Source of the DNA: Chitinophaga pinensis
GTDB lineage: Bacteria > Bacteroidota > Bacteroidia > Flavobacteriales_D > Crocinitomicaceae
Assembly: GCA_943327315.2 (NCBI GenBank)
Contig: CALPWQ020000020.1
Span: forward strand, 1 to 33,463
Reading direction: 5' to 3'
DNA: 33,463 nucleotides
Shown: piece after piece, positions 633-33,463 of the stretch
Numbering within the stretch: the first letter of the stretch is position 1
Layout: every line of letters begins with the position of its first letter
Notes under the pieces: model-generated
Told to the model about the DNA's origin: nothing
The model's input: the letters and a program-made list of their open reading frames with translations, nothing else
The model's database searches: none
Position numbers and translations under genes: made by a program

Positions 633-704
633 AGGATAGAGTTTTTAGGTGTGCTTGCTTGTAACGCAGGGTGAGGTTAAAAATAACAGGGGGGGGAGAG
701 ACAT

Positions 705-733
705 TTCGCCTTCGCTTTTTAAGCTTCGGCGAA
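705..733. repeat. Imperfect hairpin in the divergent intergenic region
   Basis: TTCGCC (705-710) pairs with GGCGAA (728-733). Inside it, GCTT pairs with AAGC around a TTT loop, with TTC facing TTC as a symmetric internal loop. A run of eight G lies just before it (689-696). It has no T-tract, so it is not a convincing terminator. It is probably another member of the small intergenic hairpin repeats in this genome. Confidence 0.5.
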
Positions 734-755
734 TATAAAAAGACCGCTTCGCTCA

Positions 756-797
756 AAGACAAAAGATTAAAGACAAAGGACAAAAGACAAAAGACAT
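756..797. repeat. Six tandem 7-bp units (AAGACAA type)
   Basis: Bases 756-797 read as six consecutive heptamers: AAGACAA, AAGATTA, AAGACAA, AGGACAA, AAGACAA, AAGACAT. The block is preceded by GACCGCTTCGCTC. An inverted, diverged version lies at about 955-1000 (GCGCAGCGG and TCTTTTGTCTT words), so the two blocks form a loose fold-back around the micro-hairpin array. Confidence 0.6.
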
Positions 798-849
798 GCT
801 CGTACTTCGGTGGCGTAAGGCAATTACTAATTACTAATTACGAGCCACG

Positions 850-1028
850 AATTGCTTACGGCATCAAATTCCCGAAGGGATCAAATCCCCAATTCCCGCA
901 GGGATCAAATTGCCTCTGGCATCAAATCCACCTCGAAGAACAATTAAGTCCTATAGCGCAGCGGGTCTTTTGTCTTAAAGCGCAGCGGTCATATGTCTCT
1001 TTCTTCCAAATTGGCTTCGCCATCAAAT
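850..1028. repeat. Array of 20-bp micro-hairpin units with covarying stems
   Basis: Five units share the form AATT, 3-nt stem, 3-nt loop, 3-nt stem, ATCAAAT. They lie at 850-869, 867-886, 891-910, 908-927 and 1009-1028. The centres are GCT-TAC-GGC, CCC-GAA-GGG, CCC-GCA-GGG, GCC-TCT-GGC and GGC-TTC-GCC. Every stem is complementary (the first needs a T/G wobble) although the stem sequence differs, while the flanks stay fixed. Neighbouring units share the AAT or AATT bases. The last unit lies next to the protease gene and supplies the TTG of its likely promoter. Confidence 0.7.
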
Positions 1029-1042
1029 TTTCCGTATCTTTC
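1011..1042 (+). promoter_or_regulatory. Likely promoter of the secreted protease gene
   Basis: TTG (1011-1013), 21 bp, then TATCTTTC (1035-1042) matches the Bacteroidota form TTG-N17-23-TAnnTTTG except for the last base. It lies 19 bp before the ATG at 1061. The -33 TTG is inside the last micro-hairpin unit. Confidence 0.5.
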
Positions 1043-1060
1043 GCTCAAATTCTTGCTAAT

Positions 1061-4000
1061 ATGAAACTGTTTACTTCTCTCCTGGCTGTTTTGTGCCTCG
1101 TTCAATTTGGATTTTCCCAAAGCTATTCGTCTGATTTCTTGGATGGAACAATCATGTTCAAGTTGAAAAATGATCCTGTTCAACACAATGGGTATCAAAA
1201 AGATAAAAATGATTATTCATTGACTGTGGATATCGCTAAATACCCTGAGATTGCTGAGGTATTTGAACAAATGACGGTGACCCAATTGGAAAAACCAAGT
1301 TACTTTACGTACAAGCCAAGCTTGCAAAACATCTTCCGCATTCACTTCTCGGAGTATGCGCAAATTGATGCCTTGATTCGTGAATTGAGCAAGTTGCCCA
1401 ATGTGGAATTCGTTGAAAAGGAACCGATTTACAAAATTGACTTCGTCCCAAATGACCCTTACCATTCTGGAAACAACAAATGGTACCATACGCTCGTGGG
1501 TTCAGAAACTGCGTGGAACATCTCGCAAGGAAGTTCTACGGTGAAGGTTGCGATCGTAGATAACGCCGTTTTCTGCGGACACCAAGACTTAACGACATAC
1601 GCACAATACGATGTGGCAGACAATGACGCGGATGCCACACCACCATTGGTTTCTACGGCTGACTTCGGGTGGTCACACGGTACACACTGTGCTGGACTTG
1701 CAACAGCGGACATAAACAACGGAAAAGGGATTGCATCGCTTGGCGCCAATGTACAGTTGATCGGTGTGAAAGCTACGCCCAACAGCGCAGCATCTTCTGG
1801 AAGTGTTTATTATTCGTACCAAGGTGTTCAATGGGCCTGCGAAAATGGAGCGAATGTGGTCAGTATGTCTTTCGGTGGTCCTTCGGCTTCAGCGAGTTTC
1901 CAAACCTTAATCAATGCCTATCCTACAGTGGTGTTCTTGGCAGCGGCAGGAAACGATGCGGTAACAACATTGATGTATCCAGGTGCCTATGACAACGTCA
2001 TCTGCGTGGGTTCAGTGAACTCAAATGATTCACGTTCAAACTTCTCCAATTACAATGGGACGACGCCCTATGTTGATATTGCTTCTCCGGGTGGATATTC
2101 GTATGGAGGTTTGTTTAGCACAGTTTATACATCCAATGGTAACGGATACGATCAAATGGGTGGTACTTCAATGGCAACACCATTTGCGGCTGGATTGGTT
2201 GGATTAATGTTAAGCTTAAATCCGACATTGACACCTGCAGCTGTCCTAAGTTGTTTGACGTCTACGGGCGTGAACATCAATCAAGCAATAGGCCCACGTA
2301 TCAATGCTCCTGCTGCACTGCAATGTGTGCAAGCAACCTTAACAGGAGATCCACTTCCTTTCTTCTCTGGGACACCAACGATGATCATTGAGGGTGATGT
2401 TGTGAACTATACGAATCTATCAGCAGATGGAGGTTCACCAATCACAAACTATACATGGAGCTTCCCGGGTGGAACACCTTCAACATTTGTTGGCGCGACA
2501 CCTCCTGCAATCACATACGCTGCGGCGGGGGTTTACAGCGTGAGTTTGACCGCAACAAATAGTCAAAGTACACAAACCTATACGCGAACGAATTACATCA
2601 ATGTGAGCATTCCTCCATACGGAGAGTGGTTGGTTCAAAACTCTGGATTTACCACGGCAAGTCGCGGGATTTCCCACATTTCGATAGTAGACCAAAATAC
2701 CGTTTGGGCAGTAGCTTATGATGGTTCAGGAGGAACGGCGAATGTGCAACAATTTACGAAGACAACAAACGGCGGTGCGACATGGACGCCTGGCAATATC
2801 AGTATCAATAATACAGCGCTTGGTATTGGTATGATTCACGCGCAGAGTGCGACAAAAGCATGGTTGGCAGCATTTCCGAATGCCGCTGGTCAAACCGGTG
2901 GAATTTGGATCACCACCAATGGAGGGACTACATGGACGCGACAAAATACAGCGACATTTAGCAATGCGGCTTCGTTTACCAATACGGTTTACTTCTGGGA
3001 TGACCTAGAGGGAGTTTGTATGGGAGACCCAATCAACAACGAATTTGAAATTTACCGCACCACCAACGGAGGAACAACTTGGACTGTTGTTCCAGGTGCC
3101 AGTATTCCAAATCCACAAGCCACTGAATTTGGATATACCCGTCAGATGGAAGTGGTAGGCAATAGCGTATGGTTTACAACGAGCAAAGGACGAATCTACC
3201 ACTCCACGAACAAAGGCGTGACTTGGGCGGTTTACACATCGCCAGTGACCGATTTTGGTGGAGCCAATGTAGCTGGAAGCTCTGCGAATCTTTCCTTCTC
3301 CTCATTGACAAATGGAATCATCATCAATCAGGCGGGCAGTGTTTGGAAATCGACAAACAGCGGATCTACATGGACGGCAGTAACGACGACAGGACCAGTT
3401 TATACAGATGGCTTGTGCTTCATTGAAGGAACATCAACGGTCTTCTCAACAGGCGCTGCAACAGGCGCTGCTGGTTCATCCTACTCAACAGACAACGGAA
3501 CAACGTGGAATCTAATTGACACAGAACAGCACTTGTACGTCGATTTCATCAATACATCCATTGGTTGGTCAGGTTGGTTCAATACCAGCGCTACAGCCGA
3601 CGGAATGTGGAAATGGAACGATTTAACGTCTCCTTTGAGTTGTGATTTTGCGGCAAATGCGCTGACCGTATGCACAAACACCTCGGTATCAATGGCAGAT
3701 TCAACATCTGGTGCCGTGCCAACATCTTGGTTCTGGCAATTCCCTGGTGGAACACCTACAACTTCGACCGTTCAAAATCCTTCTGTTACGTATACAACAC
3801 CAGGAGTTTATGATGTAACCTTAACGGTAAGTGATGGATTATCGCAAACAACGATGAATAAGCCTGCTTACATCACTGTTGTTGCACCGACATCGACACC
3901 ATCAGCCATCACGGGTCCAACAGCCATTTGTGCGAATACAACAAATGTATATTCAGTAACGCTCGTGCCAGATGTCATGTACAACTGGACACTTCCAGGG

Positions 4001-4612
4001 GCATGGACAGGAATGAGCACATCGAGCATCATGAACGCGACAGCAGACATTAGCTCTGGTACAATCTCCGTAACTGCTGAAAATGTGTGTGGCAGCAGCG
4101 CGGCAAGTACCCTGGCGATTACAGTAAATCCAGGAGCGCCAACTGCGGCGTTTACAAATAGTGTAGCTGGAGGAAATGCAAGCTTCACGAGCACATCGAC
4201 GAATGCATCCTCTTGGTCTTGGACCTTTGGTGATGGAGTTGGGACTTCAACATCAGAGAACCCAACGTATTCGTATTTGTCTAACGGAACATACACCGTT
4301 ACATTGATTGCGTCGAATGGTTGTGGATCAGATACGATTACACAAAGCGTGACGATTACGGGAGTAGGCTTGAGTGAAAATGCACCAGAGTGGATCCGTG
4401 TATATCCTGTCCCAGCAGACAATTCAGTGTTTGTGGCTTTGTCACAAGCTTTGGACAACGCAGAATTTGTCGTGTACGATGTAACAGGAAAAGTGATTCG
4501 TCGTGGTACATTGACAGGCAACACGACAGAAATTTCTATCGATGCATTGGCTTCAGGAATGTATGAATTGCGCATTTCAAATCAATACACCTACCGCATT
4601 GTGAAGAAATAA
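1061..4612 (+). CDS. Secreted subtilisin-like (S8) protease with PKD domains and T9SS sorting domain
   Basis: Start ATG 1061 is chosen because it begins a typical signal peptide (MKLFTSLLAVLCLVQFGFSQ). The frame is open further upstream to 671, but only through repeat DNA. The protein has 1183 residues. After a propeptide-like region (about 20-145) comes an S8 catalytic domain with Asp167 (VAIVD), His206 (SHGTHCAG) and Ser370 (GGTSMATPFAAG), so the triad is intact. A PKD domain follows (about 430-515), then a region of repeated GGTTW and WTTTNGG words typical of BNR/YCF48-like beta-propellers (about 520-850), a second PKD domain (about 860-940), an Ig-like stretch, a third PKD domain (about 1030-1105) and a T9SS type A sorting domain (about 1110-1183, starting VYPVPADN, ending YRIVKK). 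The known family role is an extracellular protease exported through Sec and then the type IX machinery. Its substrate is unknown. It is monocistronic with its own terminator. Confidence 0.93.
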   Translation: MKLFTSLLAVLCLVQFGFSQSYSSDFLDGTIMFKLKNDPVQHNGYQKDKNDYSLTVDIAKYPEIAEVFEQMTVTQLEKPSYFTYKPSLQNIFRIHFSEYAQIDALIRELSKLPNVEFVEKEPIYKIDFVPNDPYHSGNNKWYHTLVGSETAWNISQGSSTVKVAIVDNAVFCGHQDLTTYAQYDVADNDADATPPLVSTADFGWSHGTHCAGLATADINNGKGIASLGANVQLIGVKATPNSAASSGSVYYSYQGVQWACENGANVVSMSFGGPSASASFQTLINAYPTVVFLAAAGNDAVTTLMYPGAYDNVICVGSVNSNDSRSNFSNYNGTTPYVDIASPGGYSYGGLFSTVYTSNGNGYDQMGGTSMATPFAAGLVGLMLSLNPTLTPAAVLSCLTSTGVNINQAIGPRINAPAALQCVQATLTGDPLPFFSGTPTMIIEGDVVNYTNLSADGGSPITNYTWSFPGGTPSTFVGATPPAITYAAAGVYSVSLTATNSQSTQTYTRTNYINVSIPPYGEWLVQNSGFTTASRGISHISIVDQNTVWAVAYDGSGGTANVQQFTKTTNGGATWTPGNISINNTALGIGMIHAQSATKAWLAAFPNAAGQTGGIWITTNGGTTWTRQNTATFSNAASFTNTVYFWDDLEGVCMGDPINNEFEIYRTTNGGTTWTVVPGASIPNPQATEFGYTRQMEVVGNSVWFTTSKGRIYHSTNKGVTWAVYTSPVTDFGGANVAGSSANLSFSSLTNGIIINQAGSVWKSTNSGSTWTAVTTTGPVYTDGLCFIEGTSTVFSTGAATGAAGSSYSTDNGTTWNLIDTEQHLYVDFINTSIGWSGWFNTSATADGMWKWNDLTSPLSCDFAANALTVCTNTSVSMADSTSGAVPTSWFWQFPGGTPTTSTVQNPSVTYTTPGVYDVTLTVSDGLSQTTMNKPAYITVVAPTSTPSAITGPTAICANTTNVYSVTLVPDVMYNWTLPGAWTGMSTSSIMNATADISSGTISVTAENVCGSSAASTLAITVNPGAPTAAFTNSVAGGNASFTSTSTNASSWSWTFGDGVGTSTSENPTYSYLSNGTYTVTLIASNGCGSDTITQSVTITGVGLSENAPEWIRVYPVPADNSVFVALSQALDNAEFVVYDVTGKVIRRGTLTGNTTEISIDALASGMYELRISNQYTYRIVKK

Positions 4613-28456: not shown

Positions 28457-30226
28457 TTAGTTTCCGGCGTAAATTGACGAATATTCCAATTGGTGTTTCG
28501 CTAAAATTTTCTTGCGCTTTAATTTCAACGTAGGGGTCAATTCTTCCGCTTCAATAGAAAACTCTTTTTCAAGTAAAACGAATTTTTTGATCTGTTCCCA
28601 GTTCCCAAATCCTTTGTTGAAGTGATCTATTTCCTGCTGGATTCGTCCAATCACATGGTTGTCTTTAGAGATAGCACGATTGCTACCATCACCTAAGTCA
28701 ATCTCCTTGCGTTGTGCCCATTCTTTTATAAATGCAAAACTTGGAACAATGAATGCGGATGGGAACTTTTCTCCTTCGCCAATCACCATCATTTGTTCAA
28801 TAAAACGAGATTCCTTGAACTTATTCTCCATCGCTTGTGGAACAATGTATTTTCCGCCTGATGTTTTGAAAATCTCTTTCTTTCGGTCGGTAATTTTTAA
28901 GAATTTATCTTCAACAAACGTTCCGATGTCACCTGTGTGGAACCATCCTTCCGCATCAATCGCTTCGGCAGTCGCATCCGGTAAATTATAATAACCGATC
29001 ATCACATTCGGGCCTTTCACTAAAATTTCTCCATCCTCGGCAATGTGGACTTGAACATCGTCGATCAAAGCTCCAACAGTACCTATACGAATGCCTCGGC
29101 TAAATGAGTTCACAGAGACAACAGGAGAAGTTTCTGTCAGACCATAACCTTCAAGAATTGGAATGTCAGCCGCAAGGAAAATGCGCGCCAAACGAGGTTG
29201 AAGTGCAGCACTTCCTGAAGCAATGGCGCGTACGTTTCCACCAAGCGCTTCTTGCCATTTCGAAAAAATCAATTTTCGGGCAATGAAAAGACGGAAGTTG
29301 TACCACCAGCTTCTGCCTACAACATCATATTCTTCGGCTAAACCTACAGCCCAGAAGAAAAGCCTGCGCTTGATTCCTGTCAAATCGTCCCCCTTGGCCA
29401 TGATGCGGTCGAACACCTTTTCGATGAGTCTCGGAACGGCAGAAAATACATCTGGTTTTACCTCACGGATGTTGTCACCAATGGTATCCATTGATTCTGC
29501 GAAATGAATCGAACAACCAATGTACATGTAGAGGTAATGCAACATGCGCTCATAGATGTGACAAACAGGTAAGAAGGTGAGTACTTTCGATTTGTTATCC
29601 GCGGGTATTGGCTCCTTACATCCTGACACATTGGCGAGGATGTTGTGGTGCGAAAGCATCACACCTTTTGGATTTCCAGTTGTTCCAGAGGTGTAAATGA
29701 TTGTTGCTAAATCATGACTTTTTACTTCGTCCATTCGAGCCTGAACAACAGACTCCTCAATCTCTTGCGATCGCGCATGTATGAGGTTCCAATGGTCAAA
29801 TCCTTCAATCAAATCAAAGGTGTATAAATTCGTCAAGGTCGGAACTTCGCCACGAATATGACTGATTTTTGTAACAAGGTCGAGCGTGCTTACCACGCAC
29901 ATTTTCACTCCGGCATCGTTCAGAATATACTTGTAATCACTTTCTGAAATGTTTGGATACAGAGGGACCACAATGGCTCCAACTTGCTGGACAGCAATGT
30001 CCATGACGTTCCACTCCACGCGGTTAGATGAAACCAATGCAACATTATCACCTTTACTTACTCCTAAAGCAATTAATCCACGGGAAACAATCATGACCTC
30101 GTTCAAAAATTCATCACACGACATTTTGTGCCATGAGCCTTCCTTCTTCGTTACGAACATCCCTTGATTGGGGTAGGTGCGTTGCTGGTAATAAGGAATA
30201 TCGAATAAGCGATTTGCTTCAATCAT
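28457..30226 (-). CDS. fadD: Long-chain fatty-acid-CoA ligase (AMP-forming synthetase)
   Basis: The protein has 589 residues from ATG 30226. It activates fatty acids to acyl-CoA through an acyl-AMP intermediate, in the cytosol or at the membrane. The ATP-binding loop is YTSGTTGNPKGVM (178-190). LEGYGLTETSPVV is the second core motif, GWFHTGDIG and ITDRKKEIFKTSGGKYIVP form the hinge and catalytic-loop region, and a family-typical C-terminus of about 120 residues follows. The length fits the bacterial/eukaryotic-like FAA1 group (about 590). The symbol fadD is used for function rather than strict orthology. It is divergent from the sigma-factor operon with a 218-bp gap. Confidence 0.92.
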   Translation of the reverse strand: MIEANRLFDIPYYQQRTYPNQGMFVTKKEGSWHKMSCDEFLNEVMIVSRGLIALGVSKGDNVALVSSNRVEWNVMDIAVQQVGAIVVPLYPNISESDYKYILNDAGVKMCVVSTLDLVTKISHIRGEVPTLTNLYTFDLIEGFDHWNLIHARSQEIEESVVQARMDEVKSHDLATIIYTSGTTGNPKGVMLSHHNILANVSGCKEPIPADNKSKVLTFLPVCHIYERMLHYLYMYIGCSIHFAESMDTIGDNIREVKPDVFSAVPRLIEKVFDRIMAKGDDLTGIKRRLFFWAVGLAEEYDVVGRSWWYNFRLFIARKLIFSKWQEALGGNVRAIASGSAALQPRLARIFLAADIPILEGYGLTETSPVVSVNSFSRGIRIGTVGALIDDVQVHIAEDGEILVKGPNVMIGYYNLPDATAEAIDAEGWFHTGDIGTFVEDKFLKITDRKKEIFKTSGGKYIVPQAMENKFKESRFIEQMMVIGEGEKFPSAFIVPSFAFIKEWAQRKEIDLGDGSNRAISKDNHVIGRIQQEIDHFNKGFGNWEQIKKFVLLEKEFSIEAEELTPTLKLKRKKILAKHQLEYSSIYAGN

Positions 30227-30333: not shown

Positions 30334-30361
30334 TTGATTTGATAAACCATTTATAAATTTG
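30334..30361 (+). promoter_or_regulatory. Consensus promoter of the sigma/anti-sigma/SprF operon
   Basis: TTG (30334-30336), 17 bp, then TAAATTTG (30354-30361) is a full match to the housekeeping TTG-N17-23-TAnnTTTG form. The leader to the TTG start is about 75 nt. It contains a 6-bp inverted repeat AACGAT/ATCGTT around 30371-30388, which could be an operator or a small hairpin. The match suggests basal transcription by the primary sigma factor. Confidence 0.65.
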
Positions 30362-30444
30362 TAAGCTAAAACGATGTAAATATCGTTCACCATGTAACTT
30401 TAAGAGTTATCAAATTGTTTTAACTGCTACCTCGGAACACTGTT

Positions 30445-30933
30445 TTGAAAAGACAAGAATACAATATTGCGGTCAGCACGCACAGCGGTAAACTTTACGG
30501 CTTTGCGTTGAAGTTTCTTCGGAATTCTGAAGATGCCCAAGATGTCGTGCAAGATGTTTTTGAAAAACTGTGGATCAACCGAAAGAAAGTGGAAGCGGAG
30601 AAGGCGAAGGCCTGGATGTTTACAACAGCACACAATGCAATGATTAATTTTGTAATGAAAAAACAACGTATGATTTTGCCAGGAGATGATTTGATTCCTG
30701 AAACAGCAAAAATGGAACGTAGTGTATTCGAATCATCACAAGTCGTTGACCGAGCTGTTAGTATTCTTCCTCCTGTGCAGAAAAGTATTATTCTGTTGCG
30801 GGATCTCGAAGGATATACCTACGATGAAATAGGCAATATTCTTGAACTTTCACCTTCCCAAGTGAAGGTCTATTTGTTTAGAGCGAGGAATAAAATTAAA
30901 AAGCAGTTAAAAGGTTTGACACAACTCGTATGA
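30445..30933 (+). CDS. ECF sigma factor, partner of a trans-envelope anti-sigma protein
   Basis: The protein has 162 residues. The start is TTG 30445 (MKRQEYNIAVSTHSGKLYGF); no ATG fits, and the homologous start of ECF factors lies here. Sigma region 2 is at about residues 5-75, with DAQDVVQDVFEKLW (30-43) typical of -10 binding in Bacteroidota ECF factors. Region 4 is at about 100-157 (SILPPVQKSIILLRDLEGYT, DEIGNILELSPSQVKVYLFR), with a helix-turn-helix for the -35 element. There is no C-terminal extension. The stop overlaps the start of the next gene (ATGA, 30930-30933), so the two are translated together, as expected for sigma and anti-sigma. Confidence 0.93.
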   Translation: MKRQEYNIAVSTHSGKLYGFALKFLRNSEDAQDVVQDVFEKLWINRKKVEAEKAKAWMFTTAHNAMINFVMKKQRMILPGDDLIPETAKMERSVFESSQVVDRAVSILPPVQKSIILLRDLEGYTYDEIGNILELSPSQVKVYLFRARNKIKKQLKGLTQLV

Positions 30934-32705
30934 GCAATCCATCATTTTCAAACATCGATCGTTGGCTTTTTGAGCTCATGGAGGGAAACCTCAGTGAGGA
31001 GCAAGTGGCTCAATTGGAGACTTTTCTGATTCAGCATCCTGAACTGGATGTTGACCGCGACATGTGGGAATTATCCAAAGTGGACGATTTTGAAGTAGCT
31101 TATCCACACACAGACAAAATCATTCGCCGCCGACCAGTTGGACTTTTCATGTCCATGGGAATGGCATCTATCGCTGGAATTATTGCCTTGGGAACAGTAA
31201 TGTATTGGCCATCAGGAGACGAGCAATCAACTGCGGTTTTTACTTCACAAACGGAAACGAAGAAAACAATAGATAAAGTCGATCTTCAGACGGCCGAAAC
31301 GCAAACGACATCGGAAGATGTTACTGGCACAGGAACAATGGCTGCAACAGCATCTTCAGCCTTTCAGGAAATTGTTCCTCAAGCCATCAAAAGTCAATTT
31401 GGTGTTGAGCAAACTGATCGATCAAAAGTAGAAATGGCGTCAGGTGAAATGGCAAACACAATTGATTCGCCTAATGATGTGACGAATGAAAATTCAACTC
31501 ACCTCAGTTCTTTACAGCAAATAAATGAGCAATCAACGGTGGTGGTTTTTTCCAAACAAGAGGAAGATAAGCGAGTAACTGCTGAAAAGATAGAAGAAGT
31601 AGATGCAATCAAGGAGCAATCTGAGCTTACAGAAAAAGTGATTCAGGATGTGGTGATGAACGAGACAGTTTCTGAACAAGAGGTAAAAACAACAACAACA
31701 CCGAAAACAACTCAAACACATAGTGTCTACAAGGAAACGTTTTCGTCAAAACTGAGACAAGCGGGTAGGGCAGTAAGCCGAATGCTGGACAATCCTGTGG
31801 CCTTGAAGAACTTGAAAGACCCACATTATCACCTGCCTGGAATGCAGCCTACCGAAGTGAATTTTGGTTCAGTTGGAACATTGTTGGCCATGCGCGTTCA
31901 AACAATGTCTCGCCTTCAATGGGCAGGTCAACCAAATGAGCAGCTGATGAATAGTGTCTCCGTGGATGGTTATTCATACGGCATGCGCGGTGGACTTGGT
32001 CTTGTGGTTAGTCATTCACAATATGCCAATGGCGGAATTCAAAACATACACTCGTCTTTCACCTATTCACCGAAGTTCTCTGTGAGCAGAAATGTCATTG
32101 TAGAACCTTCATTCCGCTTCACGATGGGGAACAAAACGATTGATCCAACAAAAATTCAGACGGGATCAATGGTTGAAATGGAGCGTTTAAATTCACATCA
32201 GTTTTATGCTGTAGGACAAATGCCAATTGGTCGTTCCTTGTGGTACCGCGACTTAGGGCTCGGACTTTCTGTAAACACCCGTTGGTTCTACGCCAGTGTT
32301 CAAGGAGACAATTTATTAAAACATGCCGATAATATTTACTCAAGCAATCTGACAGACATTCGTCGCTCGGGCCAGCATTTCATTGCGACCATTGGAACGG
32401 ATTACGAGACACGCAAGGAGAACTTGGGCGTTTCTCCTTACCTCGTGTATCAGCAATATGAAACATTGAAAGAAGCATGGTTGGGTGTAAATCTTCGCTA
32501 CCATTGGATTACAGTAGGTGGAGCAATTTCTTCACAACTCGATCCTGCGGTGTCCTTAGGCATCAAATTCAACCATTTCATGTTGACCTACAATGCGGAT
32601 ATGACGCATTCGGAAGTCCTCGGAAAACAATTCTTGTCACATCAATTGACTATTCGCATCCTAACTAAACCAAGTCGCATGGGGCAACGTCTCCTAAACC
32701 TATAA
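30930..32705 (+). CDS. Predicted dual-membrane anti-sigma factor: cytoplasmic anti-sigma domain, one inner-membrane helix, linker and PorP/SprF-like barrel
   Basis: The protein has 591 residues. Residues 1-68 are a Bacteroidota-type anti-sigma N-domain (LFELMEGNLSEEQVAQLETF, then HPELD). RRR at 66-68 precedes one membrane helix (71-93), which puts the N-end in the cytosol. Residues about 95-265 are a low-complexity Ser/Thr/Glu/Gln linker. About 295-591 form a beta-rich domain ending in an amphipathic strand (HQLTIRILTKP). This region aligns by eye with the PorP/SprF protein of the next gene: GGLGLVVSHSQYANGGIQ (about 354) with GGVGILATHDQQGVGTIK, and FTMGNKTIDPTKI with WYQKSLDWDKLTF. The plan is like the dual membrane-spanning anti-sigma factors (Dma) reported in Bacteroides, which I recall from the literature. 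No signal peptide is present. Function is inferred from architecture and operon. Confidence 0.8.
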   Translation: MSNPSFSNIDRWLFELMEGNLSEEQVAQLETFLIQHPELDVDRDMWELSKVDDFEVAYPHTDKIIRRRPVGLFMSMGMASIAGIIALGTVMYWPSGDEQSTAVFTSQTETKKTIDKVDLQTAETQTTSEDVTGTGTMAATASSAFQEIVPQAIKSQFGVEQTDRSKVEMASGEMANTIDSPNDVTNENSTHLSSLQQINEQSTVVVFSKQEEDKRVTAEKIEEVDAIKEQSELTEKVIQDVVMNETVSEQEVKTTTTPKTTQTHSVYKETFSSKLRQAGRAVSRMLDNPVALKNLKDPHYHLPGMQPTEVNFGSVGTLLAMRVQTMSRLQWAGQPNEQLMNSVSVDGYSYGMRGGLGLVVSHSQYANGGIQNIHSSFTYSPKFSVSRNVIVEPSFRFTMGNKTIDPTKIQTGSMVEMERLNSHQFYAVGQMPIGRSLWYRDLGLGLSVNTRWFYASVQGDNLLKHADNIYSSNLTDIRRSGQHFIATIGTDYETRKENLGVSPYLVYQQYETLKEAWLGVNLRYHWITVGGAISSQLDPAVSLGIKFNHFMLTYNADMTHSEVLGKQFLSHQLTIRILTKPSRMGQRLLNL

Positions 32706-32708
32706 GCT

Positions 32709-33463
32709 ATGAAAAAACTACTCGTCATCACCGCACTTTTGGTTTCAACCACGTCTTTTGGACAAGATCCAACGTTTACACAATTCTATGCAAACCCAAT
32801 CTATTTGAACCCAGCATTGGCGGGTTCTTACGGTTGTTCGCGCTTTGCCTCGAATTACAGGAACGAATGGCCCAATTTGTCGAGCAATTATGTGACCTAC
32901 AGTGTCGCTTGGGATAACTATTTTGACAATATTTCGGGTGGTGTTGGAATCTTGGCAACTCACGATCAACAAGGTGTAGGGACGATCAAAACGTCGATGC
33001 TTGGTTTGGTCTATTCTTGGCATAAGAATTTTAATCGCAAATGGAGGGTTCAAGTAGGTGCGCGTGCTGCATGGTACCAAAAATCATTGGATTGGGATAA
33101 ATTGACCTTTGGCGATATGATTGATCCACGACGAGGGTTTATTTATTCAACTGGGGATGTTCCAAGAGGTGGTTCAAGAGGGTTCTTTGACGCATCTATG
33201 GGCGCAGTAATTTATAACAAGAATTTTTTTGCTGGAGCGGCATGGCACCACATGAATAAGCCGAATGAATCCATGATCGTTGGCGAATCCAAACTGCCAT
33301 GGCGTTTTACGGCTCACATGGGCGCTGAAATTAAAATTGGAGGAAAATCTAAGTACTCGAGTAAAACATCCATTATGCCGAACATCATTTACCAATACCA
33401 AAATGGTTTTCAAGAATTAAATATTGGAACCTACTTTAAATACAGCGCATTCACCATGGGGGT
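32709..33463 (+). CDS. PorP/SprF-family outer-membrane protein, 5' part (cut by the window edge)
   Basis: ATG 32709 lies 3 bp after the previous stop. 251 residues are visible and the frame is open at base 33463. The signal peptide is about 1-19 (MKKLLVITALLVSTTSFGQ). The mature start QDPTFTQFYANPIYLNPALA is the hallmark of PorP/SprF proteins: an F-Q-x-x-NP-x-x-NPA-type segment after the signal. Beta-barrel strands with GGVGILATHD, VQVGARAAWYQKSLDWDKL and FFAGAAWHHMNKP follow. Family members are outer-membrane barrels that anchor or help export particular T9SS substrates (SprB in Flavobacterium). It is the last visible gene of the sigma operon, so it is probably controlled by that sigma factor or co-monitored by the anti-sigma barrel. 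Confidence 0.92.
   Translation, partial: MKKLLVITALLVSTTSFGQDPTFTQFYANPIYLNPALAGSYGCSRFASNYRNEWPNLSSNYVTYSVAWDNYFDNISGGVGILATHDQQGVGTIKTSMLGLVYSWHKNFNRKWRVQVGARAAWYQKSLDWDKLTFGDMIDPRRGFIYSTGDVPRGGSRGFFDASMGAVIYNKNFFAGAAWHHMNKPNESMIVGESKLPWRFTAHMGAEIKIGGKSKYSSKTSIMPNIIYQYQNGFQELNIGTYFKYSAFTMG

Follow-up and report, generated by a model that had tools for sequence, protein, structure and literature searches.

Dual membrane-spanning anti-sigma factors of the Dma/Das kind, described for Dma1 and Dma2 of Bacteroides thetaiotaomicron, join an N-terminal anti-sigma domain, one transmembrane helix, a long disordered tether and a C-terminal barrel in one protein, and they are encoded in an operon context beside an ECF sigma factor (PMC13088901 and the 2024 PNAS paper cited therein). 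In Porphyromonas gingivalis, PorXY-SigP places the por regulon under an ECF sigma factor with two-component input (PMC7712824), and PorP/SprF proteins are the carriers of type B CTD cargo (PMC9143113, PMC12618676, PMC12635249). Two questions are open in this field: by what means type IX secretion and its cargo are kept in step, and how, with no relay, the genome learns of an event at the outer membrane. The operon described here allows a candidate sensor, a sigma factor, a promoter and a target set containing PorP/SprF genes to be defined together.

The window, meaning the whole stretch of 33,463 nucleotides that was analysed, is an entire contig of a 3.04 Mb draft genome (a Crocinitomicaceae-type MAG), and the contig ends within the third gene of the operon. 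The original prediction had proposed a type IX secretion system (T9SS) surveillance operon made of an ECF sigma factor, a trans-envelope anti-sigma protein and a PorP/SprF protein. The three reading frames are confirmed in the sequence, genes 1 and 2 overlapping by 4 bp and genes 2 and 3 being separated by 3 bp:

30334..30361, + strand: match to a Bacteroidota housekeeping-type promoter, TTG-N17-TAAATTTG (sequence; partly kept in relatives)
30393..30424, + strand: putative autoregulatory promoter of ECF type, TGTAAC-N16-TTGTTTTAAC, 52 nt ahead of the sigma start codon (81/81 loci; co-occurs with the triad)
30445..30933, + strand: gene 1, ECF sigma factor of the NF058625 (PG0214/GFO_1088) family, TTG start, 162 aa (ORF, domain and family profiles)
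30930..32705, + strand: gene 2, fusion of anti-sigma domain, transmembrane helix, linker and PorP/SprF-type barrel, 591 aa (ORF, profiles, AlphaFold2)
30930..31079, + strand: predicted N-terminal three-helix anti-sigma domain, residues 1-50, motif NIDRWLFE.xEGNLS..FLxQHPE (AlphaFold2, sequence)
31137..31205, + strand: predicted inner-membrane helix, residues 70-92, preceded by RRR (AlphaFold2, sequence)
31206..31730, + strand: predicted disordered periplasmic linker, residues 93-267 (AlphaFold2, alignment)
31740..31790, + strand: predicted amphipathic helix ahead of the barrel, residues 271-287, FSSKLRQAGRAVSRMLD (AlphaFold2, alignment)
31827..32675, + strand: predicted PorP/SprF-family outer-membrane barrel of the FadL/PorV fold, residues 300-582 (Pfam, AlphaFold2, fold search, hhalign)
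32709..33463, + strand: gene 3, PorP copy (PorP2), truncated by the contig end (ORF, profiles)

Another contig of the same genome (G000:C82) overlaps the window at its end by 364 bp with 50 mismatches; it encodes the C-terminus that gene 3 lacks here (...LVSCPSF) and has the downstream gene that relatives also have there. Most likely it is the continuation of gene 3, the overlap showing strain variation or conversion. Divergently upstream of the operon lies an AMP-binding (long-chain acyl-CoA synthetase-like) gene (28457-30226, - strand), present in nearly all relatives read, L064 excepted. Elsewhere in the window, positions 671-4612 encode a subtilisin-like protease with PKD-like repeats whose C-terminus resembles, by eye, a T9SS type A sorting domain.

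Profile searches find Sigma70 r2 and r4 domains in gene 1 and a score of 133 against NCBIfam NF058625 (GFO_1088/PG0214 ECF sigma; curated cut-off 130), which gene 1 alone reaches among 21 sigma-like matches in the genome. The architecture that had been read from gene 2, an anti-sigma domain followed by one transmembrane helix, a linker and a barrel, agrees with its AlphaFold2 model (pLDDT 85-93, about 77, <50 and about 92 along these parts), in which the three-helix N-domain occupies residues 9-48 and the barrel, at high confidence, about residues 322-578. The same N-domain occurs in ordinary anti-sigma factors adjoining related sigmas, where there are sub-threshold zf-HC2 matches, and for these reasons we infer that it binds the ECF sigma. 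In this genome, one ordinary paralogous sigma/anti-sigma pair (G000:C83, L180:2299-3782) has an anti-sigma with two copies of the N-terminal motif; the anti-sigma at L182:2541-3860 has three.

The barrel of gene 2 itself belongs to the PorP/SprF family. It scores 60.1 bits against Pfam PF11751 (PorP_SprF; cut-off 22.3, E 3.3e-16) with a match that runs across the barrel, and 67 against TIGR03519, under the stricter cut-off of that profile (90.6). PF11751 is found in 4 of the 5 fusion barrels scanned, relatives scoring 52.7, 74.0 and 99.7 bits (L055, L053 and L054) and L064 giving no match, and profile-profile comparison of the gene 2 barrel with gene 3 returns a probability of 99.6% (hhalign). 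Searched by profile against PDB sequences, the fusion produced no more than weak, unconvincing matches, which covered the N-domain and linker, and a fold search with the barrel model was needed; it retrieved FadL and the T9SS carrier PorV, both with Z about 22. The barrel presumably lies in the outer membrane. The fusion of the window contains no cysteine, and neither do those of most relatives.

In the model the linker is disordered and exposed, which would suit a proteolytic relay, compatible with any sensor, in which a first cut in the periplasm is followed by a second within the membrane; the fusion would then be an ordinary anti-sigma of the cleaved type whose sensor is long. The linker is unconserved in sequence among relatives (14% identity over residues 93-270) and bounded in length (149-259 aa for region 93-290), and no conspicuous conserved cleavage motif emerges from the alignments; these points argue weakly against cleavage, and we regard such a relay as somewhat unlikely. 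The signal would instead pass by release or loss of the tether.

Gene 3 keeps its original assignment as a PorP_SprF protein, with 138.3 and 168.6 bits against PF11751 and TIGR03519, over cut-off (Pfam E 4.6e-40); a search of PDB sequences gave no sequence match. It shares 74.5% identity with the gldK-adjacent PorP of the same genome and at most 31% with 13 other paralogs, and in a tree (from whose PorP count the very long branch L294 was left out) it falls closest to the gldK-adjacent PorP, the placement that marks a core T9SS PorP. Gene 3 is thus a second core T9SS PorP, besides the one whose gene adjoins gldK. Within genomes, third gene and core PorP are 94.4% identical in G029, 95.9% in G031, 85% in G008 and 71-77% in G000, G010 and G030, whereas the third genes of G029 and G031, from two genera, share 59.9%. 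Since near-identity within genomes is combined with divergence between genera and with a tree in which third genes interleave with core PorPs, the two copies appear to be under concerted evolution. The pairs of distant, near-identical PorP genes in G029 (L050 and L278) and G031 (L052 and L259) resemble gene conversion.

The C-tail of gene 3 has cysteines at positions -16 and -4 and ends in ...SCPSF. A track-linked carrier of the SprF type pairs a C-tail cysteine with the cysteine of the RGCF motif of GldK; GldK here reads RGNVF and has no cysteine at that place, so a gene 3-GldK bond as in F. johnsoniae was rejected. The RGNVF form recurs in GldK at L005, L259, L273, L274 and L278; in F. johnsoniae, the RGCF cysteine bonds SprF and PorG. 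We also rejected the SCPSF tail as the mark of many proteins: among long ORFs it is found solely in PorP copies and one MuiA/DUF4139 protein. This MuiA-family DUF4139 protein (L223:1312-3042, L226:2649-4379) ends in QRFRTVSCPSF, identical to the tails of the two PorP copies, and its gene has a near-match to the sigma promoter upstream; the common ending is possibly a shared docking tail.

Conservation of the triad in relatives had been set beforehand as a test of the proposal, and it is borne out. Among the best 80 sigma relatives from named genomes (the majority of them MAGs with the label Flavobacteriales or Crocinitomicaceae, the others including Fluviicola, Crocinitomix, Brumimicrobium and Lishizhenia), the order of sigma and fusion with its 4-bp overlap is kept at 80 of 80 loci (the fusion frame being interrupted in L146), and a PorP/SprF gene follows the fusion at -34 to +16 bp wherever the contig extends far enough. 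That sigma, fusion and PorP are accidental neighbours, sharing an operon without a functional link, is refuted by this conservation with overlapping stop and start and by the co-occurrence of promoter motif and triad, and we give it practically no weight. The operon is real, conserved and well beyond chance. The fusion is present in four further families of the host's order (f3, f10, f11 and f13); a strong N-domain match was found in 118 of 245 sampled genomes of the order, 111 of these 118 having it in a reading frame 497 codons long or longer, and several genera of the order have no such match. Outside the order, the frames that contain N-domain matches do not exceed 428 codons and the related sigma adjoins an unfused anti-sigma, to which several loci read add a separate small outer-membrane barrel. 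The fusion to a PorP-type barrel is thus specific to this lineage, one form of a sigma/anti-sigma/barrel arrangement that is itself widespread.

A consensus promoter had been placed ahead of the operon. The TTG/TAnnTTTG site at 30334-30361 does exist, but it is loosely kept in relatives and was rejected as the main promoter; matches in a Sigma-70-type promoter scan were no commoner than in shuffles. The deeply conserved promoter is the ECF-type one at 30393-30424, with TGTAAC-N16-TTGT at -43 to -75 from the sigma start in 81 of the 81 loci counted. Genome-wide, the exact pattern TGTAACWWTN13TTGTTTNA gave 79 sites in 32 triad genomes (28 ahead of the operon and 51 elsewhere) against 1 for the reversed control pattern, and 1 site in 32 triad-less genomes, three of the same genus included. 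Allowing 2 mismatches gave no enrichment over the control, so the tight pattern is needed. Sites L295, L297 and L306 were rejected as promoters because no suitable gene lies downstream, and are probably chance; the sole site in a triad-less genome (L329) is likewise probably chance.

We read 40 regions holding non-operon sites, judging signal peptides and lipoboxes by eye. Nearly all sites lie 36-225 nt upstream of a gene, mostly of the signal-peptide or lipobox type, and the main target classes recur between species: PorP/SprF genes (L289, L299, L302, L308 and L312, with L216 in the host's own genome and L221), paired small lipoproteins, a CIEHE lipoprotein and outer-membrane proteins, with one type B CTD cargo gene in one genome (L322). 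The PorP at L289 (G058), which has the gene 3 tail and its own promoter copy, lies on a contig other than that of the fusion. At L291 and L325, in two genomes, the motif stands ahead of another ECF sigma gene, which suggests a sigma cascade. The paralogous sigma operons L180 and L183 share the -35 TGTAAC and have GGTC/CGTC at -10. In the genomes read, the gldK-linked porP has an ECF-like motif of its own, TGTAAC-N16-GCGTTA (L005, L274 and L278), not TGTAAC-N16-TTGTTT; it looks like the promoter of another ECF factor and recalls the CGT box of Flavobacterium psychrophilum T9SS promoters (PMC9723704). Since this core porP carries another motif, any broader role in T9SS surveillance is conjectural.

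The link to PorP/SprF is stronger than originally proposed: the sensor barrel falls in the family, gene 3 is a core PorP copy, and PorP/SprF paralogs and type B cargo stand under the motif. New here are the barrel's PorP/SprF membership, gene 3 as a core PorP copy, the invariant ECF promoter and the co-occurrence of motif and triad. The reading that we favour, as probable but well short of certain, is a Dma-like operon that signals directly across the envelope and is specialised on PorP/SprF; judging from these sequences, a direct line from the secretion carriers of the outer membrane to transcription is probable. The N-domain of gene 2 would hold the ECF sigma at the inner membrane, as family and position suggest, one helix followed by about 190 residues of flexible linker would cross the periplasm, and the C-terminal PorP/SprF-type barrel, predicted in fold and presumably in the outer membrane, would be the sensor. 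Its signal may be PorP or carrier status, the trigger being changed PorP-dependent carriage, for example when partners or cargo held in common with PorP are lost or become occupied. Freed sigma would then transcribe the computed targets behind TGTAAC-N16-TTGTTT promoters: its own operon, giving more anti-sigma and the second core PorP copy, and other PorP/SprF carriers, small lipoproteins, outer-membrane proteins and, in one genome, type B cargo. A more tentative idea, which we hold to be possible though doubtful, is that the anti-sigma barrel is a signalling PorP and that true PorP/SprF proteins are its competitors, either for type B cargo or for some partner of PorP; if so, the sigma would read type IX carrier loading across both membranes and answer with more carriers, the second core PorP included.

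The regulon also includes lipoproteins and outer-membrane proteins that are not known to act in the T9SS, and the motif is absent from the gldK-linked porP. A general role in outer-membrane stress would fit almost as well as the PorP-specialised reading. The barrel might be a general assembly sensor, a tethered BAM client whose failed insertion leaves the anti-sigma lost or cut and envelope genes on, with its PorP kinship incidental. Many targets are indeed unrelated outer-membrane proteins and small lipoproteins, and related sigmas elsewhere adjoin a separate non-PorP barrel (OMP_b-brl_2-like), so that the barrel type looks replaceable. Yet a single family includes the sensor barrel, gene 3 and the recurrent targets L216, L221, L299, L302, L308 and L312, and in 2 of 6 genomes compared gene 3 has stayed almost identical to the core PorP; we consider this explanation unlikely. 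Quite improbable is a regulator of vesiculation or surface remodelling like Bacteroides Dma1/Dma2, with a barrel that binds a surface ligand and PorP genes as merely part of a surface programme: the four-part architecture is that of Dma (PMC13088901) and the lipoprotein and OMP targets would suit it, but in the targets read we recognised none of the genes of glycan uptake (SusCD/PUL), and it is PorP/SprF and small lipoproteins that recur there.

The original prediction had known of no such system tied to SprF, and in the openly accessible literature searched we likewise found no description of PorP/SprF joined to such an anti-sigma; the Dma2 paper does not mention PorP (PMC13088901). Ordinary Bacteroidota operons with sigma, single-pass anti-sigma and separate outer-membrane barrel (L072 and L183) share the related ECF sigma, the N-terminal motif and the transmembrane helix, in some cases a similar RKAGR-like amphipathic stretch and, where checked, the TGTAAC -35; they differ in that the anti-sigma is unfused, the barrel is a separate OMP_b-brl_2-like protein and the -10 is GGTC/CGTC, not TTGTTT. 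The ordinary pair in the host's own genome (G000:C83) has no barrel. As in PorXY-SigP, an ECF sigma is involved; for PorXY-SigP, however, no PorP-barrel anti-sigma is described (PMC7712824). Genes 2 and 3 share the barrel family of the type B carriers, and the C-tail cysteines of gene 3 recall the SprF CxC tail, whereas gene 2 is cysteine-free and tethered to an anti-sigma domain, and neither gene lies beside type B cargo. The feature by which SprF of F. johnsoniae is anchored on the gliding track (PMC12635249) is missing from gene 2, and the GldK disulfide partner is likewise absent here. By described architecture, rather than by Dma sequences, the operon may work like Dma1/Dma2; unlike Dma, its barrel is of the PorP/SprF family, it includes a core T9SS PorP copy and its predicted regulon contains PorP/SprF carriers. 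If our favoured reading is true, it would add a sensor based on a secretion carrier to the Dma class and give a reason for the second PorP in many such bacteria.
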